From Halarcobacter sp. (GTDB taxonomy: Bacteria; Campylobacterota; Campylobacteria; Campylobacterales; Arcobacteraceae): DNA of 64,000 bases. The DNA is taken from assembly GCF_963675975.1 (NCBI RefSeq), contig NZ_OY780939.1:372001-436000 (forward strand), in the 5' to 3' direction. The notes beneath the pieces were generated by a model. The model had not been told where the DNA came from. It was given only the letters and a program-made list of their open reading frames with translations, and searched no databases. Each line of letters begins with the position of its first letter. Position 1 is the first letter of the stretch. Position numbers and translations under genes: made by a program. This document shows, one piece after another, positions 12,449-27,569 of this stretch.

Positions 12449-12451
12449 AGA

Positions 12452-13636: not shown

Positions 13637-13649
13637 TATTATCTTTTTA

Positions 13650-14375
13650 TTAATTATTATGAGGGAATCTAATCCCTGTTAATTCTTCATATATATTTAT
13701 TAACTTATCTTGAATTTCTACATCATCTGCTTTTTTTGAGTATATTGTTTCTTGAAGGTGATAAAAGTATTTTCCACTAAAACCTAAATCATCATTTGAA
13801 GCAAGCCATACTTGTGTAGCACTTCCATCTTCTAAACTATCAGGTGCATTGTAATTTGCCATTTTTGTTTTTACCCAACCTGGATCAACTGTGTTTACGC
13901 ATATATCTTTCCAATATCTAGCAACTGCTAAACTCATCATTAGAATTAAAAGTTTAGAGGTTGAGTAATCAACCTTTTTTATAGTAGATAGTTTTTCTAT
14001 GTCAAAACTTCCTTGAGGATGCATGTTTGAACCAATGTATATGAGTTGTTTTGGTTTTTTTATTAAAGTTGTTAAAATATATGGTGCCAAAACATTAACT
14101 GTAAAAATTGTTTCTTTATCTTCATGAAATACACCGGCATTATGAATAATAGTATCAAATGTTTCTTGCTTATTAATCTCTTCTGCTAAAGATTTTGTTT
14201 CCTCTAAATTATTTAAATTACCTATTAAAATTTTTACATTAAATTTAGATTCAAGCTCTTTCGCTTTTTTTTTATCTCTAGCATGAAGTACAACCTCATG
14301 CCCAAGATTAATAAGCCTTTTTGCCGCTTCAAGTCCAATCCCATCAGATGAACCAGTTATGAAGATTTTTGACAT
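13650..14375 (-). CDS. Short-chain dehydrogenase/reductase
   Basis: This 241-residue protein begins with the NAD(P)-binding glycine motif GSSDGIGLEAAKRL (about residues 7-20). It has the NAG motif (HNAGVF) and the catalytic YSTSK. HARDKKKAKEL after strand 2 suggests NADP preference. The C-terminal part is somewhat variable, as usual for substrate binding. It sits between the Tat-type alcohol dehydrogenase (16-bp gap) and an MFS gene, so it is probably part of a carbonyl/alcohol-handling operon. The exact substrate cannot be told. Confidence 0.87.
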   Translation of the reverse strand: MSKIFITGSSDGIGLEAAKRLINLGHEVVLHARDKKKAKELESKFNVKILIGNLNNLEETKSLAEEINKQETFDTIIHNAGVFHEDKETIFTVNVLAPYILTTLIKKPKQLIYIGSNMHPQGSFDIEKLSTIKKVDYSTSKLLILMMSLAVARYWKDICVNTVDPGWVKTKMANYNAPDSLEDGSATQVWLASNDDLGFSGKYFYHLQETIYSKKADDVEIQDKLINIYEELTGIRFPHNN

Positions 14376-14391
14376 TTTTTTCCTTTAAAAC

Positions 14392-15564
14392 TTAGATAGT
14401 TGCTGTATCAATTACGTATCTGTATCTAGCTTTTTTGTTTTCTACGTTTTTCCAAGCTTGTGTAATCTCACTAGCTTTAATCATTTGAATCTCTGGTAAT
14501 ACATTATTTGCTACACAATAATCAACCATCTCTTGTGTCTCTTTCATTCCACCAATAAGTGAAGCATTGAAGTTAACTCTGTTTGCTGCTAAACCAATAT
14601 TGCTAAGTGTAAGTTCAAATCCTATTGGCATACCTACCATTGTAAAATAACCATAAGGTTTAACTGCATTTGCATAAGCAGCTACATTAAATTGATAAGG
14701 AATTGTTGAAATCATATAATCTAATTGTCCAGCATATGGTTGTATAGCTTTTAACTCTTCATCTACAACAATAACCTCTTTTGCTCCAAAACCTTTGATA
14801 TCATCAACTTTGTCAGCACTTGTAGTAAATGCATATACTTCTGCACCTTTTGATACAGCAATTTTTACTGCCATATGACCTAATCCACCAATACCTGCAA
14901 CACCAACTTTATCACCTTTTTTAATTTCAGCTTTTATTAGTGGTGAATATGTTGTAATCCCTGCACATAAAAGTGGAGCTGCTTTTTCAAAAGATACATT
15001 TTCTGGTAAATGTACTGCAAAATGATCTCTTACAACTAAGTGAGTTGAATATCCACCTTGAGTGATTCCTGTTGGTTCTTTCTCTTCTGGGTAACCATAT
15101 GTAAATTTAGTATCTGGTAAATATTGTTCTTCATCACCGCAAGTTGTACAACCATTTACCATACAACCAACACCTGCTCTATCACCAACTTTAAATTTAG
15201 TTACATTTTTACCTACTTGTGTTACAACACCAGCTATTTCATGACCTGGCACTTGTGGGTATTGTTGTTTTCCCCAGTGACCTTTTTCTTGGTGAATGTC
15301 TGAGTGACAAATACTTGCTGCTTTGATTTCTATTAAAATATCATCATCACCAACTGGTCTTCTTTCAAATTCCCATGGTCTAATTTCACCTGACTCATCA
15401 AATGCTGCGTATCCTTTTGTTTTAACTGTATTACTCATTTTATCTCCTTTTGTATTTGCAAATATATTAACAGGTTGTGTTGAAAACACTACTCCTGCAC
15501 CAACAATAGCACTAGCTTTCATAAAATCTCTTCGCGTATGTTCTTTTCTCTTTGCATCTTTCAT
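14392..15564 (-). CDS. Tat-signal zinc alcohol dehydrogenase (YahK/CAD-like) with internal cytosolic start
   Basis: The 390-residue product starts with a twin-arginine signal (R11-R12-D-F-M, then a hydrophobic stretch to about residue 30). A medium-chain zinc dehydrogenase of the cinnamyl-alcohol/YahK type follows: catalytic zinc residues Cys86 and His108-Glu109, nucleotide motif GIGGLGHMAVK. An in-frame ATG for Met43 (15438-15436) has its own AAAGGAGA Shine-Dalgarno just upstream and would give a 348-residue enzyme, the normal family length. Both exported and cytosolic forms seem possible. The structural-zinc lobe is shortened: Cys134, Cys139 and Cys142 are visible, but the residue after EQY is Leu149 where relatives have Cys. 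The first ATG also has a good site (AAAGGA). Confidence 0.88.
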   Translation of the reverse strand: MKDAKRKEHTRRDFMKASAIVGAGVVFSTQPVNIFANTKGDKMSNTVKTKGYAAFDESGEIRPWEFERRPVGDDDILIEIKAASICHSDIHQEKGHWGKQQYPQVPGHEIAGVVTQVGKNVTKFKVGDRAGVGCMVNGCTTCGDEEQYLPDTKFTYGYPEEKEPTGITQGGYSTHLVVRDHFAVHLPENVSFEKAAPLLCAGITTYSPLIKAEIKKGDKVGVAGIGGLGHMAVKIAVSKGAEVYAFTTSADKVDDIKGFGAKEVIVVDEELKAIQPYAGQLDYMISTIPYQFNVAAYANAVKPYGYFTMVGMPIGFELTLSNIGLAANRVNFNASLIGGMKETQEMVDYCVANNVLPEIQMIKASEITQAWKNVENKKARYRYVIDTATI

Positions 15565-15628
15565 ATTAATCCTTTGTTGATTATTTTAAATCATCTTTGA
15601 AAAAAGATTCCATTTTATAAATGCTCTT

Positions 15629-16123
15629 TTATTCCACTTTTTCAATCTCTACAGTTCCAGACATATTTTTTATATATTCAGAACCTGAAATAACCTTACC
15701 TAATTCATATAAACCACTAGCACTTCCAAAATCTTTATAAAACATCACTACATCACCCCAAGGTGCATAATATGCCAATGTCCCCGTTTTTGCATTGCTA
15801 GCAAGGGGAGTATTATTTGTTGATAATTTATTTGGTGGATAAAATATCTTTTCATCATGACTATAGTTTTCAACTTTTATATCTAAAGGTAACTGCTCAT
15901 ATAATTCTTTTGAAGCTGTTGAATTATTTAATTCATAAATCGTAGTATTACCATTTGATTTAACAGAAATTTTCATTGATTCTCCTTTTTTAATTTTCAT
16001 ATCTGACAAGCTCAATTTATGTTCATTAAATTGAGTAGGAGATTGCTTGCAAAACAAGGGGGATGTGGAAAAAAGCATTATAAATAATATTAATAAGCGT
16101 CTCACAAGTTTTCTCCTATTCAA
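15629..16123 (-). CDS. Exported cyclophilin-like fold protein, with internal start
   Basis: This is a 164-residue protein. Residues 1-25 form a basic-hydrophobic signal sequence (possible cleavage before or near Cys25). The rest matches the small bacterial cyclophilin-like family: a KISVKSNGN start, then LAYYAPWGDVVMFYKDFG and GLYELGKV. Met50 (ATG 15976-15974) is preceded by AAGGAG at 15987-15982 with a 5-nt spacer and would start a 115-residue cytosolic form, close to what this family usually looks like. The gene is first in the operon with adh, SDR, MFS and MBL, behind an AraC-type promoter at 16141-16200. The biochemical role of this family is not established. Confidence 0.8.
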   Translation of the reverse strand: MNRRKLVRRLLILFIMLFSTSPLFCKQSPTQFNEHKLSLSDMKIKKGESMKISVKSNGNTTIYELNNSTASKELYEQLPLDIKVENYSHDEKIFYPPNKLSTNNTPLASNAKTGTLAYYAPWGDVVMFYKDFGSASGLYELGKVISGSEYIKNMSGTVEIEKVE

Positions 16124-16140: not shown

Positions 16141-16200
16141 ATTATAAATTAATCAAAAATTTTTTAGTAGAAAAATACTCTATCTTTATTGCCTAATTCT
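16141..16200 (-). promoter_or_regulatory. AraC-type operator A and -10 box for the cyclophilin-like/adh operon
   Basis: On the minus strand half-site 1 is AGAATTAGGC (16200-16191). After 11 bp, half-site 2 is AGTATTTTTC (16179-16170). A TATAAT at 16146-16141 starts 33 bp after the start of half-site 2. The hexamer after half-site 2 (TACTAA) is a poor -35, which fits an activator-dependent promoter. Six other promoters in this region share this geometry. Confidence 0.7.
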
Positions 16201-16220
16201 ATAAATATAGAAATTATAAT

Positions 16221-17417
16221 TTATAACTCTAGCTCAGCCTCTGCATGCTTTGGATTTTTAGCAAATATAAGTGTAATAAAACATGCAACAATTGCTATTA
16301 TTCCATAAAAAATTGATACATGAAATAAGTCCATATGATGTGATAACTGTCCAGAAATAAAACTAGGTACTGCTGCTCCTGTATAAGAAACTGCATATAT
16401 TAATGACAATATTCCCGCTCTTTCTTTTATATCAACATCTGCAAGTAGTGAACGAATACTTCCTGTTAAAGCTGCTCCTTGTGAAGCACCTGCTAGTGCA
16501 CTGCAAGCTAAAAACATTGTTATACTAGAAAACTTTAATGATGTAATAATTCCTATTACACCAATAGTAAACATAACCATACCTATTCTTTGAGCATTTG
16601 CTGGTGTTAATTTAGCTGTTAAAGGTCCACCTATTGCACTTGGAAGAAGATAAGATGAAAACAAAATACCTATCATAAGAGTACTATGAGTTCCAAGTTG
16701 GTCAACTGCAACAGAAGGCCCAAAAGCTTGATAAAATGCCCCCATAGCCCAAGTTGATACAAAAGTAACTGCTGCTATTGGAAACAATCTTTTATCTGCT
16801 TGTGGTAATGAAAATTTTGGTTTAAAAGAACTAATTATCCCTGGTGTTTTATCTACTGTTTCTTTACTTATTGCTATTAAAATAGTACATATTGCTAATA
16901 CAATTAATACAACAATGTAACACAATACTCTAGGATATGGTCCAAATTCAACCAAAGAACCAGATACAATAGCTCCAATAGTTAATCCAGTCATAGGAGA
17001 ATTACTAATTACTGCTGAAGGTACCCAATGGGGTAAAAAAGAAGCACTATCTGCTATATATGATGTTATTGCACTTGAAGCCAATCCACATGCAAGTCCT
17101 AATAAAAATCTTCCAATAATAAGTGGAGTAGCACTATCAACATCAAATAAAATTATAGTTGCAATAGCAGTTAATGCAAAAATCAAAAATGCTACAGGCT
17201 TTCTTCCCAGGTGATTTGAGATTCTTCCAAAAATTAAAAGTGCAGTAATTGCACCAACAAAATAAACAACCGCTGTAAGGGCTAAATCATTATATGTTAA
17301 TCCATCTTCTTGTCTATAAATATCATAAAGTGGTATTGGTGTAGCAGATGCTGCAAAGACCATTAAAAAAGAGATTGTAGAGGCAAAAAATCCAATCTTT
17401 GTATTTGTTTTTTGCAA
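16221..17417 (-). CDS. MFS transporter
   Basis: This is a 398-residue major-facilitator protein with about 12 hydrophobic helices. Typical MFS features are the cytoplasmic loop GRISNHLGRKPV (motif A, about residues 64-75) and the glycine-rich GRFLLGLACGLASSAI. It lacks long loops and looks like the efflux type found next to oxidoreductase genes. It is a single-gene unit divergent from yqhD, with its own AraC-type promoter at 17448-17507. Its stop is 97 bp from the next gene start. A link to aldehyde or drug stress is inferred from the shared operator; the substrate is unknown. Confidence 0.88.
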   Translation of the reverse strand: MQKTNTKIGFFASTISFLMVFAASATPIPLYDIYRQEDGLTYNDLALTAVVYFVGAITALLIFGRISNHLGRKPVAFLIFALTAIATIILFDVDSATPLIIGRFLLGLACGLASSAITSYIADSASFLPHWVPSAVISNSPMTGLTIGAIVSGSLVEFGPYPRVLCYIVVLIVLAICTILIAISKETVDKTPGIISSFKPKFSLPQADKRLFPIAAVTFVSTWAMGAFYQAFGPSVAVDQLGTHSTLMIGILFSSYLLPSAIGGPLTAKLTPANAQRIGMVMFTIGVIGIITSLKFSSITMFLACSALAGASQGAALTGSIRSLLADVDIKERAGILSLIYAVSYTGAAVPSFISGQLSHHMDLFHVSIFYGIIAIVACFITLIFAKNPKHAEAELEL

Positions 17418-17447
17418 TTTATTATCCTTATATATTATATAAATTCA

Positions 17448-17507
17448 ATTATAAAACAGTTTTAGAATTTTAAATAGAAAAATAATCCAAAGCTCTTGTC
17501 TGATTCT
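17448..17507 (-). promoter_or_regulatory. AraC-type operator B and -10 box for the MFS gene
   Basis: Minus-strand half-sites AGAATCAGAC (17507-17498) and ATTATTTTTC (17486-17477) are 21 bp apart start to start. TATAAT lies at 17453-17448, exactly 33 bp after the start of the second half-site. It is divergent from the yqhD promoter, so the two share a 206-bp intergenic region. Confidence 0.7.
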
Positions 17508-17524
17508 CTAAGTTTCAAATTTCA

Positions 17525-17590
17525 TTTGTAGAATTTGGTATATGATTTGTAGAATTTGGTATTCAAAACTATTAGTAATCCTTTTATAAT
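17525..17590 (+). promoter_or_regulatory. AraC-type operator D (perfect 17-bp direct repeat) and -10 box of yqhD
   Basis: The 17-mer TTTGTAGAATTTGGTAT occurs twice without mismatch, at 17525-17541 and 17546-17562, a period of 21 bp (two helical turns). This is the classic tandem arrangement for an AraC-family dimer. TATAAT is at 17585-17590, 34 bp after the start of the second AGAATTTGGT half-site, with a weak -35 (TTCAAA) touching the repeat. It probably activates yqhD; the likely regulator is the AraC protein encoded just downstream. Confidence 0.75.
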
Positions 17591-17622
17591 TCACTCACAA
17601 AAATTAATAAAGGACAAAATAA

Positions 17623-18762
17623 ATGGAATTTTCTTTTCACAATCCAACAGGTATAGAATTTGGAAAAAGTAAAATCAAAGAGATTGCAAACCTAATCCCT
17701 AAAGATAAAAAAGTATTAGTAGTTTATGGTGGTGGTTCAGTTAAAAATAACGGAGCTTATGACCAAGTTGCAGAAGCACTAAAAGGTCACGAATGGTTAG
17801 AGTTTGGTGGTGTTGAGCCAAATCCAACAGTTGAAACTATGAATAAAGCAGTAGAATTAGTAAAAGCTGAAGGTGTTAATTATATCCTTGCAGTTGGTGG
17901 TGGTTCTGTTATTGATGGTTCTAAATACCTTGCAGCAGCATCTTTATATGATGGTGATGGATGGGATTTCCTAGATGGTACAGCAGAAGTTGAAAGAGCA
18001 CTTCCTTTAGCAGTTGTATTAACTTTAGCAGCAACTGGTTCTGAATCAAATAACTTAACAGTTGTATCAAGAAAAACTACAGATGAAAAAAGAATGTATT
18101 TCTCAGACCATTCTTACCCACAATTTGCAGTATTAGACCCATCATTTATGGGAACTTTATCTGACAGACAATTAGGAAATGGTTTAGTTGATGCATTTGT
18201 TCACATCTCTGAGCAATACTTAACAAAAACAAATGACCTTTTAGTAAATGATGGTTATGCTGAAACTTTATATAAAGGTTTAGTAACTCTTGCTTCTAGA
18301 TGGGAAGAAAGAAGAACATTATGGTGGCAAGAAAACTTAATGCACATCTGTAATCAAGCACTTAACTTCCAATTAGCAAATGGTGTTTGCCAAGACTGGT
18401 CAACTCATATTATTGGACACGAATTAACTGCATTCTACGGATTAGATCACGCTAGATCTTTAGCAGTAATCTTACCTCACTTAATCAGAGAGATGATTGA
18501 TGAGAAACAAGACAAATTAGCACAATTTGGTAAAAATGTATTTGGAATTGAAAACAATAACGAAGCAATTATCGAAAAAATCGAAGAGGTATTTGAATCT
18601 GTTGGTGTTCCAACTAAATTAACTGCTTATGAGATTGATGATAAAGTTGTTGAAAATATCCATAGCGCATTTAAATCTCACGGTTACACTGAAATCGGAG
18701 AAAATGGAACTGTTACTTTAGACAAAGTTGAAAAAATTATTAACAGATCTATTGCAGCGTAA
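17623..18762 (+). CDS. yqhD: Iron/zinc-dependent alcohol dehydrogenase, YqhD-like aldehyde reductase
   Basis: At 379 residues this is a full-length group III metal-dependent alcohol dehydrogenase. It begins FHNPTGIEFGKSKI and has the nucleotide-binding GGGSV motifs (YGGGSVK; AVGGGSVIDGSK). The metal ligands fit Asp and His in VDAFVHISE and two His in HIIGHELTAFYGLDH, as in E. coli YqhD. YqhD reduces short-chain and lipid-derived aldehydes with NADPH. The codon use is smoother than that of its neighbours, suggesting high expression. It lies next to a convergent AraC regulator gene as in the E. coli yqhC-yqhD pair, and has a double-repeat operator upstream. Confidence 0.92.
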   Translation: MEFSFHNPTGIEFGKSKIKEIANLIPKDKKVLVVYGGGSVKNNGAYDQVAEALKGHEWLEFGGVEPNPTVETMNKAVELVKAEGVNYILAVGGGSVIDGSKYLAAASLYDGDGWDFLDGTAEVERALPLAVVLTLAATGSESNNLTVVSRKTTDEKRMYFSDHSYPQFAVLDPSFMGTLSDRQLGNGLVDAFVHISEQYLTKTNDLLVNDGYAETLYKGLVTLASRWEERRTLWWQENLMHICNQALNFQLANGVCQDWSTHIIGHELTAFYGLDHARSLAVILPHLIREMIDEKQDKLAQFGKNVFGIENNNEAIIEKIEEVFESVGVPTKLTAYEIDDKVVENIHSAFKSHGYTEIGENGTVTLDKVEKIINRSIAA

Positions 18763-18780
18763 GTTTCAACTTACACTACA

Positions 18781-19647
18781 CTAACAAGAGGCTTTTGCCT
18801 CTTTTGGTGAATACCCAAAATAACTTTTAAAATCCCTACTAAAATGTGAAGGGTTATCATAACCTAACTCATCTGCTACATCCACAACTTTATAATCATG
18901 TTTAACCAATAAATCTTTTGCTCTTGTTAATCTAATCTTTTTTATATATTGAAGAGGAGTATGCGAAGTTATTTTTTTAAAATGGTTATGAAAAGATGAA
19001 ACACTCATATCGCAAACTCTAGCCAATGAATCCATATCTAAAGTTTTATTATAGTTATCATGGATATGTTTTAAAGCTTTTGCTATTTTTGATTCTTTGT
19101 TTTCTTCTAAAAACATTTTATGGAGCATTTTTGCATTTTTTCCAATTGCAATTCTGTAAAACAACTCTTTTAAAACACCTTTTCCTAAAATCATTGATTC
19201 CTCTTTTGATTCTAAGATATCTAATAATTTTGCAGTTGTATCTTCTATTTGTTCAGTTACCTTATCAGCAAAAATACCAACATTGCTATTATTTTCAATT
19301 TTAAAATCCCTATGACTTAACTCTTCAATTATATCTACCATCATTTCTCTATCTAAAGATATGATAAGACTAATAAAAGGTTCCTCTTTTGTGGCATAGG
19401 TTTCACACTCTAAAGGTAGAGTAGTAGGTACAACAAGATAATTGTCACAGTCAAAGGTAAAACGATTACTAGCAAGGTTTGCAATCTTTTTACCTTGAAG
19501 AACAAGTATTAAACAAACATCATAAATCAAAGGACTTTTAGGTTCATAAACTTCTGTTTTAAAAATTTTTATATCATTTAAATGGGTATCATGAATACCA
19601 TCTTCAACTAATAATATTTCTCTATTTTCTATAATGCTTTTTTTCAT
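18781..19647 (-). CDS. AraC-family transcriptional regulator (YqhC-like)
   Basis: This is a 288-residue regulator. The N-terminal cupin-type domain (about 10-165) belongs to the AraC regulator group with YqhC; the C-terminal double helix-turn-helix (about 190-285) has recognition segments SVSSFHNHFKKIT and NPSHFSRDFKSYFG. It is encoded convergently with yqhD, 18 bp beyond its stop. In E. coli YqhC activates yqhD in response to aldehydes, and the same logic is likely here. No copy of the tandem operator was seen in front of this gene itself, so it may not be autoregulated. Confidence 0.9.
   Translation of the reverse strand: MKKSIIENREILLVEDGIHDTHLNDIKIFKTEVYEPKSPLIYDVCLILVLQGKKIANLASNRFTFDCDNYLVVPTTLPLECETYATKEEPFISLIISLDREMMVDIIEELSHRDFKIENNSNVGIFADKVTEQIEDTTAKLLDILESKEESMILGKGVLKELFYRIAIGKNAKMLHKMFLEENKESKIAKALKHIHDNYNKTLDMDSLARVCDMSVSSFHNHFKKITSHTPLQYIKKIRLTRAKDLLVKHDYKVVDVADELGYDNPSHFSRDFKSYFGYSPKEAKASC
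18786..18805 (+). terminator. Probable terminator of yqhD
   Basis: AAGAGGC and GCCTCTT form a 7-bp stem with a TTTT loop (18786-18803), followed by a short T run, 23 bp after the yqhD stop. It overlaps the last codons of the convergent AraC gene. Confidence 0.55.
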
Positions 19648-19786
19648 TTTTCTCTTTATTGGGTATTAAATCGCGCAATTTTAATATAAAAAACCCATTA
19701 TATACTTTAAATTTTATTTTTTAGATGTTTTAGAAGTAAGATTTTTCCTTTTTAATTTTTAATAAAAAGGGATAAAACCTTTTATA

Positions 19787-20527
19787 TTATAAATAAGCTC
19801 CACCACAAACTGGTAGATATGTACCTGTAAGATGAGAACTTTCATCTTTTACAAATAAACTAACTGCATTTGCAATATCCTCTGGATTTGCTACTCTTCC
19901 AGTTGGTGTTGAAGATCTAAGAAATTCTATAAACTCTTCAGGTGCACCTGCTGTTGCATCTGTTAATACTAATCCTGGAGCTACCACATTTGATGTAATA
20001 CCATAAGAACCTAATTCATATGCTAAGTATTTACTAAATGAATCTAATGAACCTTTTGCACTACCATGTGCAATAAAACTTGTAAGTGGGTCTTCAGATA
20101 AAGTACTTGAGATAAATACTAATCTTCCAAATTTTTTCTCTATCATTGATTTTGTAGCAAATTTTGCACAAACATATGCTGCATGCATTTCATCATTTAA
20201 TTTTTGTGAAAACTCATCCCAAGTTTGATCAACAAAAGGTTTTGGAGTAAAGTTCATATTTGCATTTGATACTAAAATATCCACTCCACCATGTTTAGTT
20301 TGAATCTCATCAAACATAGCTTCAATTTGTGCGTCATCTCTTACATCTGCTTGAATAGCATAAGCTTCTCCACCATCAAAACTTATCTCTTTTACTAACT
20401 CTTGCGCAACTTGAGTACTATTTACATAGTTAATAAAAACTCTGTATCCACTTTTTCCTAATAAAACTGCTGTTGCAGCACCAATACCTCTAGCACCACC
20501 TGTAATAAGTACATTTTTTTTTGACAT
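19787..20527 (-). CDS. SDR-family oxidoreductase (FabG-like)
   Basis: This 246-residue protein has the classical SDR core: cofactor motif GGARGIGAA (about 11-19), SNANMNF in place of the usual NNAG, catalytic Ser in VFISSTLSED, and a C-terminal GG-rich end typical of 3-oxoacyl-ACP-reductase-like enzymes. At the usual Tyr-x-x-x-Lys position it reads AHGSAKGSL: Lys is kept, but the catalytic Tyr appears as His (HGSAK). This may alter or remove normal activity and should be checked by alignment. It is co-oriented with the FAD protein gene 10 bp upstream, behind the MarR-type operators. Confidence 0.85.
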   Translation of the reverse strand: MSKKNVLITGGARGIGAATAVLLGKSGYRVFINYVNSTQVAQELVKEISFDGGEAYAIQADVRDDAQIEAMFDEIQTKHGGVDILVSNANMNFTPKPFVDQTWDEFSQKLNDEMHAAYVCAKFATKSMIEKKFGRLVFISSTLSEDPLTSFIAHGSAKGSLDSFSKYLAYELGSYGITSNVVAPGLVLTDATAGAPEEFIEFLRSSTPTGRVANPEDIANAVSLFVKDESSHLTGTYLPVCGGAYL

Positions 20528-20537
20528 AATTATCCTT

Positions 20538-21140
20538 TTATTTTGTATCTACATCATGAATTACTGTATATTTTCCTGCCCAAAGACTTAATATATCTGT
20601 TGCCGTTTGTGCCCCATAACCAGCTGCCGAACTAAACATTGAACTTGCACCTGCTGCACATCCTGTAACATATTTTCCATCTTCGATAATTCCATTATCG
20701 TTTTCAATCATAATCATACCTGGTCTTGGAGCTCTTATATGTTTTATAATTTGTGAGCCAATCCCTTCAATTTCTATAGTTTGCATACCAGTAGCGAAAA
20801 CTACAATTTCAGCTTTATATTTTTCACCTGATTGTGTTTCAATCAAATATTCATTATCTTCATTATTTACTTTAGTAACTGTATCTTTTTTAGTTTCTAC
20901 TATTTTATAAAGATTTGCTTTTTGATTCATTGAAACTAATAAATCTTTACCTTTAGTTCCCTCTTTTACACCTGCTACATTATATAACTCTGCTTTATTT
21001 AAGTGTGATTCACCTGAATCAAGAACTAAAATCTTTTTATTTTCAACTATATCCATTTTTGATTCTGCAGAACCTAAAGTTATAGCACACGAAAGTCCTG
21101 AAACTCCTCCACCAATAATTAAAACATCAAACTTTTCCAT
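20538..21140 (-). CDS. Short FAD-dependent oxidoreductase, thioredoxin-reductase-like
   Basis: This is a 200-residue flavoprotein with the Rossmann FAD motif IIGGGVSGLSCAI at the N-terminus, an ATG-type motif (VVFATGMQ) and a C-terminal segment like the second FAD motif (GKYVTGCAAG). It resembles thioredoxin reductase but has no separate NAD(P)H domain and no CxxC redox pair, so it is a single-domain form. It is first in a two-gene unit with the SDR gene and divergent from marR, with two inverted-repeat operators between. The redox partner is unknown. Confidence 0.8.
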   Translation of the reverse strand: MEKFDVLIIGGGVSGLSCAITLGSAESKMDIVENKKILVLDSGESHLNKAELYNVAGVKEGTKGKDLLVSMNQKANLYKIVETKKDTVTKVNNEDNEYLIETQSGEKYKAEIVVFATGMQTIEIEGIGSQIIKHIRAPRPGMIMIENDNGIIEDGKYVTGCAAGASSMFSSAAGYGAQTATDILSLWAGKYTVIHDVDTK

Positions 21141-21163
21141 TAATATCCTTTAACAATTGAAAA

Positions 21164-21186
21164 TATACTTGTCAAATGCAAGTATA
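21164..21186. promoter_or_regulatory. MarR-type operator 1
   Basis: TATACTTG and CAAGTATA form a perfect 8-bp inverted repeat with a 7-bp spacer. It lies 24 bp upstream of the FAD protein start and overlaps a TTGACA-like sequence on the minus strand. It shares TACTTG/CAAGTA with operator 2, so one regulator probably binds both. Confidence 0.65.
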
Positions 21187-21203
21187 TTTATTTGAAACTT
21201 AAA

Positions 21204-21243
21204 TACTTGTTAAAGACAAGTACTATATTTATTAAGCTATAAT
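21204..21243 (+). promoter_or_regulatory. MarR-type operator 2 and marR -10 box
   Basis: TACTTGT and ACAAGTA (21204-21222) are perfect 7-bp arms with a 5-bp spacer, centred 38 bp from operator 1. TATAAT at 21238-21243 ends 6 bp before the marR ATG. Transcription from it would start at or next to the start codon, so the marR message may be leaderless and autorepressed. Confidence 0.6.
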
Positions 21244-21249
21244 ACTTTT

Positions 21250-21690
21250 ATGAATAAATATGAATTTAACCTACAAGACTCCTTAGGATACCATTTTAAC
21301 GTGATTTTTATTAATATTAAAAAATCAATGGAAGCAAAGTTAAAACCATATAATTTAACCCATCTTCAATTTAGCATACTTATAAACCTTTATAAAAATA
21401 ATCTATCTACCCAAAAAGAATTGCTAAAATATTCATATGGAGATGAAACAAGTATAACAAGGCTTGTAGATAGGCTAGAAACAAAAGGCTACTTAAAAAG
21501 AGTTCAGTGTGAAAAAGATAAAAGAAAGAAAAAATTACTTCTTACAAAAAGTGGTATATCTTTAACCCAAGAGATTATATCTTGTGCCAGAGAAGTAAAC
21601 AATGAACTTATTAAAAACTTGGATGAAAAAGAAGCAATCCAGCTTTTAGAACTTCTTCAAAAAATGCAAATAACAATCAACGACAAATAA
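21250..21690 (+). CDS. MarR-family transcriptional regulator
   Basis: This 146-residue winged-helix regulator has the MarR pattern: N-terminal dimerisation helix (SLGYHFNVIFINIKKSMEAKL), helix-turn-helix with STQKELLKYSYGDETSITRLVDRLE, and wing KRVQCEKDKRKKKLLLTKSG. The start fits the family although there is no Shine-Dalgarno upstream, consistent with a leaderless message. It is divergent from the FAD protein/SDR unit, with two matching inverted repeats in between. It is thus most likely the local repressor of that unit and of itself, probably released by an oxidant or phenolic compound. Confidence 0.92.
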   Translation: MNKYEFNLQDSLGYHFNVIFINIKKSMEAKLKPYNLTHLQFSILINLYKNNLSTQKELLKYSYGDETSITRLVDRLETKGYLKRVQCEKDKRKKKLLLTKSGISLTQEIISCAREVNNELIKNLDEKEAIQLLELLQKMQITINDK

Positions 21691-21809
21691 ACAAATTTAC
21701 AATTTAACTTATAAAGATATTTTTCTATTACTTACCTAAAGTAAAGTAAGAATAGTTTAAGAAAGAATAGCTAAAATTCAAAATATAAATCAATTGATAA
21801 GGAAATATA

Positions 21810-22802
21810 ATGACTAATAAAAATGTACCATTATCAGTTTTAGACTTAGTTCCTATTGGCGAAGGTTTTACTATTAGTGAAGCTATTAATAACAGTACAA
21901 AACTAGCCCAAAAAGTTGAAGAGTTTGGATTTAACCGTTATTGGGTTGCAGAACATCACAATTTTTCAAGTATTGCAAGTGCAGCTACTTCTGTTATATT
22001 AAGTCATATTGGAGCTAAAACAGAAAAAATAAGAATAGGTTCAGGTGGAATAATGTTACCTAATCATCCGCCACTTGTTATTGCAGAACAATTTGGAACC
22101 TTAGAAAGTATGTATCCAAACAGAATTGATTTAGGTTTGGGAAGAGCTCCTGGGACAGATGGAAAAACAGCTTTAGCTATTAGAAGAGATATTCACAATG
22201 ATGGTTCTGATTTTCCAAATATGTTAGAAGAGTTAGAAAGTTACTTTTATGATGAGTTTAGTAAAACGGGTGTAAAAGCAGTACCAGGATTTGGTCTAGA
22301 AATACCTATTTGGTTACTTGGTTCAAGTACTTTTAGTGCAAGATTAGCAGCAATAAAAGGTTTACCTTTTGCCTTTGCTTCGCACTTTGCACCTGATTCA
22401 ATGATGGAAGCAATAAATGTTTATAAAACAAATTTTAGACCATCAAAACAATTAAAAGAACCATATATTATCATTTGTATAAATGCTGTTTGTGCAACAA
22501 CAAATGAAGAGGCTCAATACTTAGCTACAACAGAAAAACAAAAATTTCTTTATATTCAAAGAGGAGTAGATAAGCTTATCCCTAAACCAACTAATGATAT
22601 GGATAGTTTATGGGAAGATTGGGAAAAAAGATCAATTACGCATAAGTTAAGAGAATCAATCTGGGGTACACCTGAAATTGTTAAGGAAAGATTAGATGCA
22701 TTAGTTAAAAAAACAGGTGCGAATGAGATTATGATTAACTCATGGATTCATGACCCTGAAAAAAGAATTGAATCATATAAACTTATTTCAGATATCTGGT
22801 AA
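21810..22802 (+). CDS. LLM-class flavin-dependent oxidoreductase (luciferase-like)
   Basis: At 330 residues this is a luciferase-like monooxygenase of the MsnO8/YhbW subgroup. It begins PLSVLDLVPIGEG and has NRYWVAEHHN, then IRIGSGGIMLPNHPPLVIAEQFGTL in two linked stretches, then LGLGRAPG. These motifs bind FMNH2 in the TIM barrel. It is preceded by AAGGAAA and followed at once by a long hairpin. It lies between marR and DUF3737-malY. No clear AraC-type operator was found in front of it. The substrate is unknown; such enzymes often oxidise small organics with a separate flavin reductase. Confidence 0.9.
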   Translation: MTNKNVPLSVLDLVPIGEGFTISEAINNSTKLAQKVEEFGFNRYWVAEHHNFSSIASAATSVILSHIGAKTEKIRIGSGGIMLPNHPPLVIAEQFGTLESMYPNRIDLGLGRAPGTDGKTALAIRRDIHNDGSDFPNMLEELESYFYDEFSKTGVKAVPGFGLEIPIWLLGSSTFSARLAAIKGLPFAFASHFAPDSMMEAINVYKTNFRPSKQLKEPYIIICINAVCATTNEEAQYLATTEKQKFLYIQRGVDKLIPKPTNDMDSLWEDWEKRSITHKLRESIWGTPEIVKERLDALVKKTGANEIMINSWIHDPEKRIESYKLISDIW

Positions 22803-22803
22803 A

Positions 22804-22858
22804 AGAATAATCCAAATAGTATAAAATTTTGAATTTTATACTATTAGGCAATTATTCT
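22804..22858. terminator. Long hairpin after the luciferase-like gene
   Basis: Two nested stems start 2 bp after the stop: AGAATAAT (22804-22811) with ATTATTCT (22851-22858), and a perfect 14-bp stem 22815-22828/22832-22845 with a 3-nt loop. There is no T run, so it may stabilise the 3' end rather than act as an intrinsic terminator. Its right arm overlaps operator F. Confidence 0.5.
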
Positions 22859-22899
22859 GTAATATTATTCTACTGATAAATTTAAATTTTTTATATACT
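22840..22899 (+). promoter_or_regulatory. AraC-type operator F and -10 box for DUF3737-malY
   Basis: Half-sites ACTATTAGGC (22840-22849) and AATATTATTC (22861-22870) are 21 bp apart. TATACT at 22894-22899 starts exactly 33 bp after the second half-site start. Half-site 1 is buried in the right arm of the preceding hairpin, so read-through transcription could hide it in RNA but not in DNA. Confidence 0.62.
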
Positions 22900-22984
22900 A
22901 AACTTATCTTAGATAGTTACCTCATCGTACTTAACTAATTATAAAAACAATAAAACAATTTAAATATTTGTAAAGAGGAAAAAA

Positions 22985-23854
22985 ATGAATATGAAGAATT
23001 TAGATATTAATAAAAATTTTGAATTCATACAAAACAATACATTTGAAGGAGAGAGACCTTTATTTAAATCATCATATATAGATTTGTATAAATGTAAATT
23101 TACCCAAGGAGAATCTGCTGTAAAAGAGAGTAATTATATTAAATCACACAGTTGTGATTTTTCAAGTAAGTATCTTTTTTGGCATTGTGATAATCTATTA
23201 ATTGAAGAGAGTTATTTTGCAGAAGGTGGAAGAGCGAGTATTTGGTACTCTTCTAATATCTCTTTAGAAGATTCAAAAATTGATTCTCCAAAAATATTTA
23301 GAGATGCAAAAGATATCTCTATAATTAATTGCGAACTAAATACAAATGAAACACTTTGGGATTGCGAGAATGTAAAGATTACAAATACAAACTTTATTGG
23401 TGATTATATACTTTTTCATAGTAAAAATATAGAAGTTGAAAACTTTAAACTTGATGGTAATTACTCTTTCCAACATACAAAAAATGCAACATTTAGAAAT
23501 ATAGAAATCAAATCAAAAGATGCTTTTTGGAATAGTGAAGATGTTACAGTTTATGATTCAGTGATAAATGGAGAATATCTAGGTTGGTACTCAAAAAATC
23601 TAAAATTTGTTAACTGTAAGATTGCTGGAACACAACCTTTATGTTATGCCGAAAATTTAGTTTTAGAAAACTGTGAGATGATTGATACAGATTTAGCTTT
23701 TGAATATTCAACCCTAGATGCACAAATAACTACATCAATTGACAGTGTAAAAAACCCTATTAGTGGAAATATAACTGCATTAGAAATAAAAGAACTAATT
23801 TTAGATGATGAAAAGACTGATTTAGATAATTTAAAAATAATTACAAAAAAATAA
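22985..23854 (+). CDS. DUF3737-family right-handed beta-helix protein
   Basis: This is a 289-residue protein made of short repeated strands with regularly spaced Phe/Trp/Ser/Asn-rich turns (for example FWHCDNLLIEES, WYSSNISLEDS, LWDCENVKITN), the pattern of a parallel beta-helix. The start NTFEGERPLF and overall repeat layout fit DUF3737. This family is often found beside MalY/PatB genes, as here (malY starts 20 bp later). It has no signal peptide and no recognisable catalytic site. Its biochemical role is not known; co-regulation with malY through operator F is likely. The gene has a GAGG Shine-Dalgarno. Confidence 0.8.
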   Translation: MNMKNLDINKNFEFIQNNTFEGERPLFKSSYIDLYKCKFTQGESAVKESNYIKSHSCDFSSKYLFWHCDNLLIEESYFAEGGRASIWYSSNISLEDSKIDSPKIFRDAKDISIINCELNTNETLWDCENVKITNTNFIGDYILFHSKNIEVENFKLDGNYSFQHTKNATFRNIEIKSKDAFWNSEDVTVYDSVINGEYLGWYSKNLKFVNCKIAGTQPLCYAENLVLENCEMIDTDLAFEYSTLDAQITTSIDSVKNPISGNITALEIKELILDDEKTDLDNLKIITKK

Positions 23855-23873
23855 ACAAGTTTAGGATATATAG

Positions 23874-25058
23874 ATGAGATATAACTTTGACAAAGTCATA
23901 GATAGAAACAATACAAATAGCTCAAAGTGGGATACAACAGAAGAAGGTGTATTACCTATGTGGGTTGCAGACATGGATTTCAAAGCTCCTACAGAAATCA
24001 TAGATAGTATACTAATCAGAGGGATTCATGGAGTTTTTGGATATACAATGATTCCTGAAAAATTTTATGATGCTGAGATTTTCTGGTGGGAAAAGAGGCA
24101 CAACTTTTCAATAAAAAAAGAATGGATACTACCAACTGTAGGAGTTATTCCCTCTTTAAGTGCTACAGTTCAAGCTTTTTGTCAAGAAGGGGATAAAGTA
24201 CTAATCCAATCTCCAGTTTATAACTACTTTAATACCTCAATTATTAATAATAAATGTGAAGTTGTTACAAATGATTTAATATACAAAAACAATAAATATA
24301 CTATCGATTTTATAGACTTTGAAGAAAAACTAAAAGACGAAAAACTTAAACTATTTATTCTTTGCAATCCACACAACCCTGTAGGAAGAGTTTGGACAAA
24401 AGATGAGTTAACAAAAATGGCTGAATTGTGTATAAAACACAATGTAATAATCTTAAGTGATGAGATTCACAGAGATTTAGTATATAGTGATTCAAAATAT
24501 ACTCCAATTGCATCAATTAGTGAAGAGATTTTACAAAACTCAATAACTTGTACAGCTCCAAGTAAAACATTTAATCTTGCAGGTTTAAAAACTTCTAATA
24601 TAATAGTTGCAAATGAGGAGTTTAGAAAAAAAATAGATAGGTCATTAAATATAAATGAATCAATTGAACCAAATGTATTTGGAATAGAAGCTCTGATTAG
24701 TGCTTATACCTATGGAGATGAATGGCTAGACCAATTACTAATTTATCTTGAAAAAAATAGAGATTTAGCAATTGATTATATAAAAAAATATATTCCAGAA
24801 CTTGTAGTAATAAAACCTGAAGCTACATATCTTTTATGGATTGACTGTTCAAAACTAAATATTCAATCTGAACAATTAGTTAAGAAGATAAAAGAATTAG
24901 GAAAACTTAGAATCGCATCTGGAATAACTTATGGGAAAAGTGGTGAAAACTTTATAAGAATAAATATCGCTTGTCCATTAAAAACCTTAGAAGATGGATT
25001 AAATAGACTTCAAAACTCAATAAATCAAATAAAAAAAGAAGAAAAATATCTTTTTTAA
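23874..25058 (+). CDS. MalY/PatB-family PLP enzyme (cystathionine beta-lyase type)
   Basis: This is a 394-residue fold-type I PLP enzyme. It starts NFDKVIDRNNTNSSKWD and has LPMWVADMDF, both typical of MalY/PatB. Further motifs are CNPHNPVGRVW (Asn and Gly at the phosphate/substrate site), SDEIHRDLVY (Asp for the pyridine nitrogen) and APSKTFNLAGLK with the Schiff-base Lys. Such enzymes cleave cystathionine or cysteine conjugates to thiol, pyruvate and ammonia. Together with the electrophile-detoxifying neighbours, a role in handling S-conjugates is reasonable but unproven. An antisense promoter-like site faces its 3' end. Confidence 0.9.
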   Translation: MRYNFDKVIDRNNTNSSKWDTTEEGVLPMWVADMDFKAPTEIIDSILIRGIHGVFGYTMIPEKFYDAEIFWWEKRHNFSIKKEWILPTVGVIPSLSATVQAFCQEGDKVLIQSPVYNYFNTSIINNKCEVVTNDLIYKNNKYTIDFIDFEEKLKDEKLKLFILCNPHNPVGRVWTKDELTKMAELCIKHNVIILSDEIHRDLVYSDSKYTPIASISEEILQNSITCTAPSKTFNLAGLKTSNIIVANEEFRKKIDRSLNINESIEPNVFGIEALISAYTYGDEWLDQLLIYLEKNRDLAIDYIKKYIPELVVIKPEATYLLWIDCSKLNIQSEQLVKKIKELGKLRIASGITYGKSGENFIRINIACPLKTLEDGLNRLQNSINQIKKEEKYLF

Positions 25059-25076
25059 GTTGCTTGGAATAGGCAT
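25017..25076 (-). pseudogene. Vestigial 19-codon ORF behind the orphan AraC-type promoter
   Basis: On the minus strand AAAAGGA precedes ATG at 25076-25074, followed by MPIPSNLKK and then a Phe-rich run ending at TGA 25019-25017. It overlaps the 3' end of malY antisense. The normal-looking start region with a nonsense continuation suggests the 5' remnant of a gene once driven by operator C. It may equally be chance. Confidence 0.25.
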
Positions 25077-25109
25077 GATAAATAATCCTTTTAATAGTTT
25101 ATTATTATC

Positions 25110-25169
25110 ATTATAAATGAAGTTTTAAATTATCAATATAAAGATTATCCAGATACAATGCCTAATTCT
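25110..25169 (-). promoter_or_regulatory. Orphan AraC-type operator C and -10 box, antisense to malY
   Basis: Minus-strand half-sites AGAATTAGGC (25169-25160, identical to operator A) and ATAATCTTTA (25148-25139) are 21 bp apart. TATAAT at 25115-25110 lies exactly 33 bp after the second half-site start. Transcription would run into the 3' end of malY, where no minus-strand gene is seen. Confidence 0.6.
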
Positions 25170-25174
25170 CTAAA

Positions 25175-26092
25175 TTAAATACTTTCTTGGTTTCTCAAAT
25201 ATTCTGCATGGGCTTTAGGTGACATTCCATACATTCTAGAATATTCTCTACTAAACTGAGAAGGGCTTTCATATCCAACTGCAAAAGCGACCTCTGAAGC
25301 TTCAATATTTTGATTTAAAAGCATAAGTTTTGCTTCTTCTAATCTAATCTTTTTTTGAAATTGTATGGGAGACATAGATGTAATAGTTTTGAAGTTTTCA
25401 TATAAAGAAGACTCGCTCATATCAATCAATCTTGCTAACTCTTTTACATTTAATTTTTCGTTGAAATTATCTTTAATTTGAGATACAACTTTTACTATTT
25501 TATTTGAGATTGTACCTTCCATTGCGAACTTATTTAAGAAATATCCACTCTCATCTTTTATCAAAATAAATAGTATCTCTTTTATAATCATTGGAGATAA
25601 AAACTCTATCTCTTCTTTTGGTTGTTCTAAAAGTTTTACAAGTCTTACGACAGGGTCATATAATCTTTCATTTAGCTCATCAAAAAACAAACCTTTTTCT
25701 GTTTTTTTAGAAAGTTGAAATTTTTTATTGTCCAGATTTTTTATCACTTCGTAAATATCTTCAAGTCTAAATTTTATTCTTAAAGATACATATGGTTCCT
25801 CTTTTGTTGCATCAAGAATTTTTACTTTTGCAAAAAGATTTGCAGCTGAAAGAAGGTATTTTTCAATATTATAACCTAAAGGATCTTTTCCAAAATCTAT
25901 GGCTTTACTTCCTTGCAATATAATACACAAAGATGGTTCATAAGCAGTAGTATTAAACTCTGTTTCTTTATGGGAAAAATAAAAGTCTAATGCAGGTATT
26001 TCTGTTTGTAATCCTCCATCAATATCTAAAGAATATTTCTTTTCTATTATGTCAAGTAGTTTTAATCTGTTTTCATTAATAAATTCTTTCAA
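25175..26092 (-). CDS. AraC-family transcriptional regulator
   Basis: This is a 305-residue regulator of the same two-domain type as the gene at 18781-19647: an N-terminal AraC_N-like sensory domain (about 20-195, with CIILQGSKAI and YLLSAANLFAKV) and a C-terminal double HTH (about 205-300; recognition segments SESSLYENFKTIT and SPSQFSREYSRMYG). It is divergent from the cupin/CMD genes. Its own promoter (operator G) and that of the cupin gene (operator E) have the same tandem architecture. This makes it the best candidate for an autoregulated master activator of the local regulon; the actual binding is inference. Confidence 0.9.
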   Translation of the reverse strand: MKEFINENRLKLLDIIEKKYSLDIDGGLQTEIPALDFYFSHKETEFNTTAYEPSLCIILQGSKAIDFGKDPLGYNIEKYLLSAANLFAKVKILDATKEEPYVSLRIKFRLEDIYEVIKNLDNKKFQLSKKTEKGLFFDELNERLYDPVVRLVKLLEQPKEEIEFLSPMIIKEILFILIKDESGYFLNKFAMEGTISNKIVKVVSQIKDNFNEKLNVKELARLIDMSESSLYENFKTITSMSPIQFQKKIRLEEAKLMLLNQNIEASEVAFAVGYESPSQFSREYSRMYGMSPKAHAEYLRNQESI

Positions 26093-26119
26093 AAAAAACC
26101 TTTTAGTATTATCTATTTT

Positions 26120-26179
26120 ATTATAATATATTTTTTATCTATTTAATATAATAATTCTCTGTAGCACTTGCACAATACT
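26120..26179 (-). promoter_or_regulatory. AraC-type operator G and -10 box for the araC gene
   Basis: Minus-strand half-sites AGTATTGTGC (26179-26170) and AGAATTATTA (26158-26149) are 21 bp apart. TATAAT at 26125-26120 is exactly 33 bp after the second half-site start. It is the weakest sequence match of the set, but the spacing is exact. It implies autoregulation. Confidence 0.55.
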
Positions 26180-26218
26180 CCAAACAATCATAAATTTACC
26201 TATAATTAAACTATTTGT

Positions 26219-26278
26219 AGGATTTGACAATAGTTTTGTAATATTGTTCTAGCAATTAGTTCTCTTTTTTATTATAAT
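26219..26278 (+). promoter_or_regulatory. AraC-type operator E and -10 box for cupin-CMD
   Basis: Half-sites AGGATTTGAC (26219-26228) and AATATTGTTC (26240-26249) are each preceded by TTTGT/TTTTGT as in the yqhD repeat. TATAAT at 26273-26278 starts 33 bp after the second half-site start. It is divergent from operator G, with about 40 bp between the two sites. Confidence 0.65.
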
Positions 26279-26345: not shown

Positions 26346-26843
26346 ATGAAAAAATTAGGATTAATAAGTTTGACTGTTGCTATTCTTACAATTCAGTCTA
26401 ATGCAGCAGATATAAAACAAGAACAAACTATCACAAAATTAGAAGATAGAAAATCTATTGTTGTAAATAAAACTGAATTTAAAAAATACTTTACTGGTGG
26501 TGAAGTAAGAATTGACCCTGTTTATCCAAAAGGTAATGCAAAAACTCACTCAGGAGCTTATGTTACATTTGAACCAGGTGCAAGATCAAACTGGCATACA
26601 CATCCAGCAGGTCAACATATCATTGTGACTAAAGGTGTTGGTTATACTCAAACATGGGATGGAAAAAAAGAGATTGTAAAAGAAGGTGATGTAGTTTGGT
26701 GCCCAATTGGTGTAAAACATTGGCATGGTGCTTCAAAAGATATTGCAATGACTCACTTAGTAATTACTGGTGCAGTTGAAGAAACAGGTAAAAATGTTAC
26801 TTGGAGGGAACCTGTTACAGATGAACAATATTATGGAAAATAG
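26346..26843 (+). CDS. Exported cupin-domain protein
   Basis: This is a 165-residue protein with a clear Sec signal (MKKLGLIS..., cleavage likely after SNA at about residue 20). The single cupin barrel has metal-binding motif residues in SNWHTHPAGQHIIV (two His, Gln, His) and the second motif WCPIGVKHWHGA. These cupins are often encoded next to carboxymuconolactone-decarboxylase-like proteins, as here (9-bp gap). The pair probably acts in the periplasm on a small organic compound. Expression is likely controlled by the upstream AraC-type operator E. Confidence 0.88.
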   Translation: MKKLGLISLTVAILTIQSNAADIKQEQTITKLEDRKSIVVNKTEFKKYFTGGEVRIDPVYPKGNAKTHSGAYVTFEPGARSNWHTHPAGQHIIVTKGVGYTQTWDGKKEIVKEGDVVWCPIGVKHWHGASKDIAMTHLVITGAVEETGKNVTWREPVTDEQYYGK

Positions 26844-26852
26844 GAGGGTATT

Positions 26853-27569
26853 ATGTTAAAAAAAATACTTTCTATAACTGCATTTTTTAGTTTATTATTT
26901 ACAAGCTCTTTATTAGCTAAGGAGGAAATAAAAATGTTAGATAAAAAACAACAAAATATGATTACTATCTCTGCATTTACTGCAAATGGAAATTTAGATA
27001 AATTAAAAATAGCCTTTAATGAAGGTTTAGATTCAAAACTTACAATAAATGAAATAAAAGAGGCAATTGCTCATCTGTATGCATATACAGGATTTCCAAG
27101 AAGTTTAAACTCTTTAAATCTTTTTATGAAAGTAGTTGAGGAAAGAAAAGCTGCTGGAAAAGAAGATATATTAGGAAAAGAAGCAAGCCCTAAACCAGAA
27201 AACTATGATTCAATAGAATATGGTAAAAAAATTAGAGCTAAATTAGCTGGATTAAAAGAGGATTACACAGGTGCACCTTATCAAGTTTTTGCTCCAGTTG
27301 TAGATGAATACCTTCTTGGGCATCTATTTGGTGATATTTTTGTTAGGGATGTACTAACACATGAACAAAGAGAATTAGTAACAATCTCAGCATTGGCAGC
27401 TATGACTGGTACACAAGGACAATTAAACTTCCACTTAAAAGCAGCAATGAATACAGGAATCACTAAAGATCAATTAAATGACTTCATAAAAGTAATTGAT
27501 ACGAAAGTAGATAGTACTCAAGCAAAACTATCAAAAGAGACTTTAGAAAAAGTTTTAGACAGTAAATAA
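26853..27569 (+). CDS. Carboxymuconolactone-decarboxylase family protein with signal peptide and internal start
   Basis: This is a 238-residue protein with two carboxymuconolactone-decarboxylase-like repeats (about 30-110 and 135-230; the second includes RELVTISALAAMTGTQGQLNFH). Residues 1-22 form a Sec signal (cleavage near LLA). Immediately after it AAGGAGG (26919-26925) and ATG 26934 (Met28) form a textbook internal ribosome site, so a signal-less 211-residue form could also be made. The AhpD-type CxxC is absent, so this is not an alkylhydroperoxidase of that kind. It is co-transcribed with the cupin gene and ends at a strong hairpin. Confidence 0.87.
   Translation: MLKKILSITAFFSLLFTSSLLAKEEIKMLDKKQQNMITISAFTANGNLDKLKIAFNEGLDSKLTINEIKEAIAHLYAYTGFPRSLNSLNLFMKVVEERKAAGKEDILGKEASPKPENYDSIEYGKKIRAKLAGLKEDYTGAPYQVFAPVVDEYLLGHLFGDIFVRDVLTHEQRELVTISALAAMTGTQGQLNFHLKAAMNTGITKDQLNDFIKVIDTKVDSTQAKLSKETLEKVLDSK

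Follow-up and report, generated by a model that had tools for sequence, protein, structure and literature searches.

Does a gene cluster with seven promoters of one geometry and two araC genes serve one regulator or two? The question is posed by 64,000 nucleotides of DNA from Halarcobacter sp. (Arcobacteraceae; NCBI RefSeq assembly GCF_963675975.1, contig NZ_OY780939.1, positions 372,001 to 436,000), here called the window, in which an original prediction had described seven promoters with paired half-sites (sites A to G) as a local AraC-type regulon. We conclude that the locus very probably holds two parallel regulons of two regulators with an AraC_N (PF06719) domain: AraC1 with a class-1 operator upstream of a yqhD-like gene, and AraC2 with a set of class-2 operators. 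For both, binding, activation and inducer are what we infer from the DNA.

Two operator classes in one gene cluster

All seven sites were found at the predicted coordinates and strands, each with a TATAAT or TATACT box (Table 1). The half-site starts are 21 bp apart in every site, and the distance from the start of half-site 2 to the start of the -10 box is 33 bp in A, B, C, E, F and G and 34 bp in D. When the position matrix check was run, sites left out of a matrix built from the other six ranked 4th to 8th of 127,922 window positions. The proposal of one architecture for all seven sites is strongly supported for this fixed, AraC/class II-like geometry and fails for the single set, which splits into two operator classes: D alone is class 1, and the other six are class 2. 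The deviant 34-bp distance of D marks a different regulator.

The two classes also differ in sequence. Site D is an exact 18-bp direct repeat of ATTTGTAGAATTTGGTAT (17524-17541 and 17545-17562) with a 21-bp period, while the half-sites of A, B, C, E, F and G differ from each other, the distal one reading AGAATTAGGCAA and the proximal one ATTATTNTTCTA. The predicted half-sites of 10 bp were right in spacing and wrong in length, the class-2 information running from about -4 to +12 around half-site 1 and from -3 to +13 around half-site 2. On a class-2 matrix trained on the same six sites, those six score 30.6-37.7 and the next best window position 13.2; D scores 12.1 on the matrix built from them. 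A pattern of the form GAATTNGGC-N9-13-TTATT gave a single match, outside the window, and missed the sites of the window because the proximal half-site is asymmetric.

Each operator class co-occurs with one of the two regulators

We searched 104 genomes of the family for both classes, calling AraC2 at an E-value of 1e-60 or better. The class-2 pattern (at most two mismatches) occurs in 19 of 22 genomes with AraC2 versus 2 of 82 without it, and the class-1 pattern (at most three mismatches) in 21 of 36 genomes with AraC1 versus 0 of 68 without it; of the reversed-pattern controls, that of class 2 matched in 1 of the 104 genomes and that of class 1 in none. Two genomes with AraC2 and without AraC1 (G002, G004) have class 2 and lack class 1, and three with AraC1 and without AraC2 (G006, G012, G014) have class 1 and lack class 2; in G013, class 1 was found by the matrix only. 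Most class-2 matches (59 of 69) lie at most 20 kb from an AraC2 gene. Among the remote ones, four (G002, G004, G026, G045) precede a 2Fe-2S subunit gene, one (G025) precedes a gene resembling the short-chain dehydrogenases/reductases (SDR), and two belong to the fragmented assembly G008, where they fall on a different contig. A class-2 match in G007 was rejected as lying inside a gene.

Around araC1, 31 loci were compared, including that of the window, and a yqhD-like open reading frame (ORF) was called in 29 of them. A class-1 candidate lies 10-200 bp upstream of yqhD in 28 of these 29, with a score of at least 12 in 27; six of the 28 candidates had trained the class-1 matrix. The -10 box is at exactly 34 bp in all 28.

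For AraC2, we ran the class-2 matrix from the six window sites, at a score of at least 20, on 23 loci (391 kb) drawn from 20 further genomes with AraC2, having removed L108, a near-copy of L107, and keeping L036, another contig of an AraC2 genome that holds targets without araC2. This gave 61 sites, present in all 23 loci and all intergenic, and 0 matches in 18 control loci without araC2 (172 kb). A gene starts 30-180 bp downstream of 59 of the 61, and the best -10 box is at 33 bp in 51 and at 34 bp in eight, the other two having -10-like boxes at 33 bp by eye. The most frequent target is araC2 itself (16 sites), and the rest include cupin genes (nine), a cyclophilin-like gene (five), DUF3737 (three) and, with four sites each, genes for transporters of the major facilitator superfamily (MFS), Ahr, luciferase-like monooxygenases and YqhD-like paralogs as well as a 150-codon ORF. 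Half-sites, spacing and -10 distance are thus kept together in relatives, the opposite of -10 boxes persisting where half-sites are lost, which the original prediction had named as counting against it.

Several points weigh against assigning the two classes to the two regulators. Sites near these regulators had served to design the patterns, which builds part of the positive result into the genome comparison; its informative half is the near-absence of the patterns from genomes without the regulator. The genomes are also related, and for both reasons the Fisher p values (1e-15 for class 2, 1e-12 for class 1) overstate the association. Three genomes with AraC2 (G022, G027, G075) have no class-2 match at two mismatches, the matrix nonetheless finding sites in them, and the class-1 pattern is missing from 15 of the 36 genomes with AraC1. 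Conversely, G082 has no AraC2 at the E-value used and yet two intergenic class-2-like matches, of which one precedes a Gfo/Idh-like ORF. In the scan of AraC1 loci, no class-1 site was found in L117 and no good distal half-site in L110, and in two loci no yqhD was called. A short class-2 pattern, used with three mismatches and without the -10 box, was discarded as unspecific (11 matches in the own genome versus 7 reversed). Finally, the half-sites of the two classes are similar, and cross-binding is possible.

AraC1 and the yqhD-like gene

The product of the class-1 target matches NF011717 at E=3.7e-120, under the curated cut-off, and scores 401.5 bits against the cut-off of 645 of the NCBIfam equivalog PRK15138; because this cut-off is missed, we name the product YqhD-like only.

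Three further observations concern AraC1 loci in other genomes. In L114 (2395-3533, minus strand), the yqhD-like gene is split into two called ORFs, which may reflect a broken gene or a sequencing error. G004, which keeps AraC2 and class-2 sites only, carries a short stretch that resembles araC1 and contains two in-frame stops (G004:C1:1921336-1921518, locus L024). In two genomes of genus g19, a class-1-like site lies upstream of a DJ-1/PfpI-family gene near AraC1 (L127, 647, plus strand; L128, 3209, minus strand), the family assignment coming from a Pfam run on L127 only. Bacterial DJ-1 homologs have been linked to glyoxal (PMC5297802).

Candidate targets of AraC2 within the cluster and far from it

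The predicted targets stand for six of the seven sites (Table 1). The exception, site C, has no listed same-strand gene within 4 kb.

Table 1. Operator sites, regulator genes and candidate target genes in the window.
Feature	Class	Coordinates	Strand	Details
Site A	2	16141..16200	-	half-sites 16200-16191 and 16179-16170; -10 TATAAT 16146-16141
Site B	2	17448..17507	-	upstream of MFS transporter gene
Site D	1	17524..17590	+	upstream of yqhD; -10 TATAAT 17585-17590
Site F	2	22840..22899	+	-10 TATACT; upstream of DUF3737-malY
Site C	2	25110..25169	-	immediately 3' of araC2
Site G	2	26120..26179	-	upstream of araC2; putative autoregulation
Site E	2	26219..26278	+	upstream of cupin-CMD (CMD, carboxymuconolactone decarboxylase)
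araC1	1	18781..19647	-	AraC_N and two helix-turn-helix (HTH) subdomains, YqhC-like; tail-to-tail with yqhD; assigned to class 1 by co-occurrence
araC2	2	25175..26092	-	AraC_N and two HTH subdomains; assigned to class 2 by co-occurrence
yqhD-like	1	17623..18762	+	Fe-dependent alcohol/aldehyde dehydrogenase; candidate target of site D
Site A unit	2	11381..16123	-	cyclophilin-like, Ahr-like aldehyde reductase, SDR, MFS, metallo-beta-lactamase (MBL)-fold; candidate target of site A
MFS transporter	2	16221..17417	-	candidate target of site B
DUF3737 and aminotransferase class I/II	2	22985..25058	+	second gene malY-like by the original name; candidate target of site F
Cupin and CMD-family gene	2	26346..27569	+	candidate target of site E

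The close spacing of the genes downstream of site A points to a single operon; its SDR gene (13650-14375) carries its original name rather than one from a domain scan. The listed start of the cyclophilin-like gene (16123, TTG) is close to the -10 box, so the true start may lie further in. The same genes are preceded by class-2 sites elsewhere: the cyclophilin-like gene in L033, L034, L036, L043 and L044, the MFS gene of site B in L034, L036, L043 and L093, and DUF3737 in L033, L093 and L097. A luciferase-like monooxygenase gene has a class-2 site in L033, L034, L037 and L044; in the window, no class-2 site scoring at least 10 was found upstream of 21810, where this gene lies.

Site C has near-consensus class-2 geometry and points antisense into malY. 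A search for a remnant gene after it found only a 19-codon ORF, whose first residues have no homolog in the loci compared, and no terminator-like hairpin was found near it. In L095, L097, L099, L103, L105 and L106, a site at the position of C drives a co-directional gene. Site C may be an orphan, a relict or an antisense promoter.

The regulon had been called local, which holds for the six class-2 sites in the window and not for two distal ones. With the -10 box included, the class-2 pattern matched nine places in the 3.27-Mb own genome versus 0 for the reversed control: the six window sites, 2444077-2444140, 1599113-1599176 and a weak candidate at 2793259 (three mismatches, -10-like TATTAT), which is probably due to chance and was rejected. 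The site at 2444077-2444140, about 2.05 Mb from the window, is upstream of a cupin gene whose product shares 74-81% identity with cupins encoded in AraC2 clusters of L033, L034, L037, L043, L044 and L093. The site at 1599113-1599176, about 1.2 Mb from the window, is upstream of genes for a 2Fe-2S subunit and then a molybdopterin-binding subunit. Among 11 relatives of this 2Fe-2S subunit (64-78% identity) in the stretches searched, ten have a class-2 site 84-97 bp upstream. Six of these ten sites are in AraC2 clusters (L035, L097, L099, L107, its near-copy L108, and L109); the other four are far from AraC2 clusters, in stretches chosen because the pattern had matched there. The relative in L034 has no class-2 site directly upstream and lies behind cupin-CMD.

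The operator thus locates candidate targets away from its regulator. In the own genome it pointed to two of them at a distance from the cluster, and in four other genomes to the same distal operon.

The regulator proteins

The window encodes two AraC regulators, as predicted. Both contain AraC_N (PF06719; 106.5 bits in AraC1 and 118.6 in AraC2, cut-off 24.2) and PF12833 (78.6 and 73.5 bits, over the cut-off), which places both in the AraC/XylS family. In a tree of 136 rows they form separate clades with support of 99 and 96 in the Shimodaira-Hasegawa-like approximate likelihood ratio test (SH-aLRT), rising to 100 for AraC2 joined by one Thiomicrorhabdus row; long branches are present, and the tree does not settle whether AraC1 joins YqhC.

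Cys81 of AraC1 is found in 31 of 31 AraC1 and 3 of 3 YqhC rows, in 0 of 24 AraC2 rows and in 2 of 78 others. This distribution suggests Cys81 as a candidate electrophile-sensing residue, a possible thiol sensor of the YqhC-like branch. Cys45 of AraC1 and Cys56 of AraC2 are each invariant within their own rows. The AlphaFold2 model of AraC2 has a mean predicted local distance difference test score of 92.5 and the helices of two HTHs; the nearest full-length folds retrieved with it by Foldseek are ToxT, Rns and CsvR (best E-value 1.1e-10).

The operator beyond the Arcobacteraceae

We applied the half-site matrix trained on Arcobacteraceae to the upstream regions (320 bp) of 79 relatives of AraC2 in other groups, most of them Bacillota and Pseudomonadota with a few Cyanobacteriota and others, after dropping L166 (Aliarcobacter) as belonging to the same family. 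A spacing of 21 bp was best in 48 of the 79 regions versus an expectation of 3.7 by local shuffling and a count of 4 when the 79 regions were reversed, many of the 79 being near relatives (Paenibacillus, Pseudomonas) and hence not independent cases; another spacing was best in the remaining 31. Of the 48, 22 score above the 99% level of shuffles, and the best -10-like hexamer is at 34 bp in 27 (1.8 expected), including 13 of 16 from Bacillota. G+C-rich genomes are among the groups that keep the motif. All 45 relatives scanned, out of the 79, contain PF06719, or 47 of 47 with the two window proteins. In another set of 17 regions, one of which (V. campbellii) was a training sequence, the 21-bp spacing was best in 12.

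At one mismatch, a pan-group consensus matched 11 of the 199 genomes searched within the order, among them the own genome, versus 0 for the reversed control, and an AraC2-like gene (31-47% identity) lies near the site in four of seven stretches then examined. Two stretches from other families of the order carry three and two sites over about 11 and 6.5 kb (G245:C1:9891-21083 and G216:C1:40067-46574). The own genome has a third AraC_N gene (G000:C1:160370). A 21-bp pair, the best of its 19-kb stretch and with TATAAT at 33 bp by eye, is located there upstream of the neighbouring SDR-like gene (L045, 10053, minus strand; genome position about 162052).

On this evidence, the AraC_N family probably shares one ancestral operator code of two AGRATTAGGCAA-like half-sites 21 bp apart with a -10 box 34 bp from the proximal start (33 in the AraC2 branch of the Arcobacteraceae), recognisable in Campylobacterota, Bacillota, Pseudomonadota and some representatives of further phyla, from which paralogs would diverge through the proximal half-site and a one-base shift of the -10 box. 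If this is true, the targets of very many uncharacterised AraC_N regulators could be read from DNA.

Proposed regulation and alternative explanations

Class II activation, as established for other members of the AraC family, has a subunit at the -35 region at a fixed distance from the -10 box. The sites described here have this layout: the proximal half-site adjoins a -35 region with a poor hexamer, and the -10 box follows at a fixed 33 or 34 bp, so that a bound protein would contact RNA polymerase from the proximal half-site as in class II activation. AraC1 would bind the 21-bp-period direct repeat at D and activate yqhD. AraC2 would bind the asymmetric pair and activate its own gene together with oxidoreductase, efflux, cupin and related genes through sites A, B, E, F and G and the two distal loci. 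The precedent of YqhC and the gene content suggest aldehydes or other electrophiles as inducers: the window encodes YqhD-like, Ahr-like, SDR, efflux and cupin proteins, and the targets in relatives or at the distal site include an aldo/keto reductase and a molybdenum oxidoreductase.

That a single AraC regulator binds all seven sites as one regulon would fit the resemblance of the half-sites of D to those of the other six and its score on their matrix, and is nevertheless improbable, as the classes part with AraC1 and AraC2 over 104 genomes, genomes with one regulator retain one class, and the -10 distance divides in the same way (34 bp in 28 of 28 class-1 sites, 33 bp in 51 of 61 class-2 sites). 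We give even less weight to a third owner of the sites, for which the genome does offer candidates in the MarR protein at 21250-21690 and the third AraC_N gene. The sites co-occur with orthologs of AraC1 and AraC2, araC2 is itself the most frequent class-2 target, and the 21-bp design recurs upstream of AraC2 relatives elsewhere; the third AraC_N locus moreover has a 21-bp pair of its own, and MarR dimers do not usually bind direct repeats spaced by two helical turns. Least credible of all, to the point that we practically dismiss it, is a general promoter or composition feature of A+T-rich genomes. The A+T content of the window is 72% and TATAAT boxes occur often, and yet the class-2 matrix finds nothing in the control loci, the reversed patterns match in next to no genomes, and AraC2 relatives in other groups, G+C-rich ones included, still have the motif upstream.

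A different sign of regulation deserves more consideration. AraC2 could be a repressor, or act in both ways and repress its own gene through G, given that the proximal half-site adjoins the promoter and that some AraC proteins repress without ligand; we consider this unlikely, in view of the poor -35 boxes at a fixed distance from the -10 box and of the description of YqhC as an activator (PMC5297802). Two parallel activators, AraC1 for class 1 and AraC2 for class 2, remain our preferred explanation.

Comparison with known systems

Activation by AraC proteins through direct repeats is already known, as is the pairing of YqhC with YqhD. The classical class II operators, araI1-araI2 and the XylS target Pm, likewise have direct half-sites about two helical turns apart with the proximal one at -35, but differ in half-site sequence, and their regulators have a sensor domain of a family other than AraC_N. 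ToxT, Rns and CsvR share with the present regulators an N-terminal beta-rich sensor domain, a helical linker and two HTH subdomains, but are only 11-17% identical and have other sensors and targets. CmrA of Pseudomonas aeruginosa is an electrophile-responsive AraC regulator and, going by this description, possibly answers to the same kind of stimulus.

The closest system is YqhC-yqhD-dkgA of E. coli. Between yqhC and yqhD, we found two AGAAAT-type half-sites 21 bp apart in E. coli, Salmonella, V. alginolyticus and V. campbellii. A matrix from the yqhD operators of E. coli, Salmonella and the two Vibrio species ranks D first of 127,928 window positions (17.2; next 9.8), with E, A, G and C at ranks 7, 10, 18 and 19 and B and F outside the top 25. 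Reciprocally, the half-site matrix trained on Arcobacteraceae prefers a spacing of 21 in five of five yqhC-yqhD regions (V. fluvialis added; scores 22-26.5), and in none of four yqhD regions for which no AraC neighbour is known (scores 2.8-9.9), which come from Pseudoalteromonas, Salinivibrio and Acinetobacter (no AraC annotated directly beside yqhD) and from Aeromonas (no annotation).

The E. coli yqhD promoter has been described with -35 TTGAGA and -10 CACAAT (PMC6115493), which by our count on the sequence begin 11 and 34 bp after the proximal half-site start. A figure legend in the same paper gives the YqhC site as a SoxS-like sequence and a 24-bp palindrome; by eye, E. coli has a palindrome that overlaps its distal half-site and the Vibrio sequences have none, whereas the direct repeat is present in both. 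Other papers describe YqhC as an activator whose target is induced by glyoxal and furfural, direct action on YqhC being called unclear (PMC5297802), report a single target for E. coli YqhC (PMC8249747), find sequence-specific patterns at YqhC sites by chromatin immunoprecipitation with exonuclease digestion (ChIP-exo; PMC8464067) and, in a modelling paper, mention annotated activator sites near yqhC (PMC13052891). An atlas of P. aeruginosa binding sites obtained by systematic evolution of ligands by exponential enrichment includes AraC-family motifs (PMC8041468). The operator, the Arcobacteraceae paralog pair and the conservation across phyla were not found in the literature searched, whose scope excluded the primary YqhC reports and the YqhC ChIP-exo supplement, so that the repeat may already have been published. 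In that literature, YqhC is the AraC_N regulator with a studied target and a vaguely described site; a defined operator with a fixed -10 distance turns the assignment of targets to regulators into a sequence search.

AraC1 shares with the YqhC system an AraC_N regulator (Salmonella YqhC was scanned) whose gene lies beside yqhD (17623-19647), a yqhD-like target, and a YqhC-type operator with half-sites 21 bp apart and the -10 box at 34 bp. It differs in gene order, yqhC and yqhD being divergent in Salmonella and Vibrio and tail-to-tail here, and is 31% identical to YqhC of Salmonella and 34% to that of E. coli. The identification of AraC2 with YqhC was ruled out: it has many class-2 targets, unlike the single-target YqhC of E. 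coli, the window's yqhD site is not among them, and it lacks Cys81. With similar half-sites, a one-base difference in promoter spacing and two regulators in one cluster, the paralog pair offers a clean case of operator divergence.

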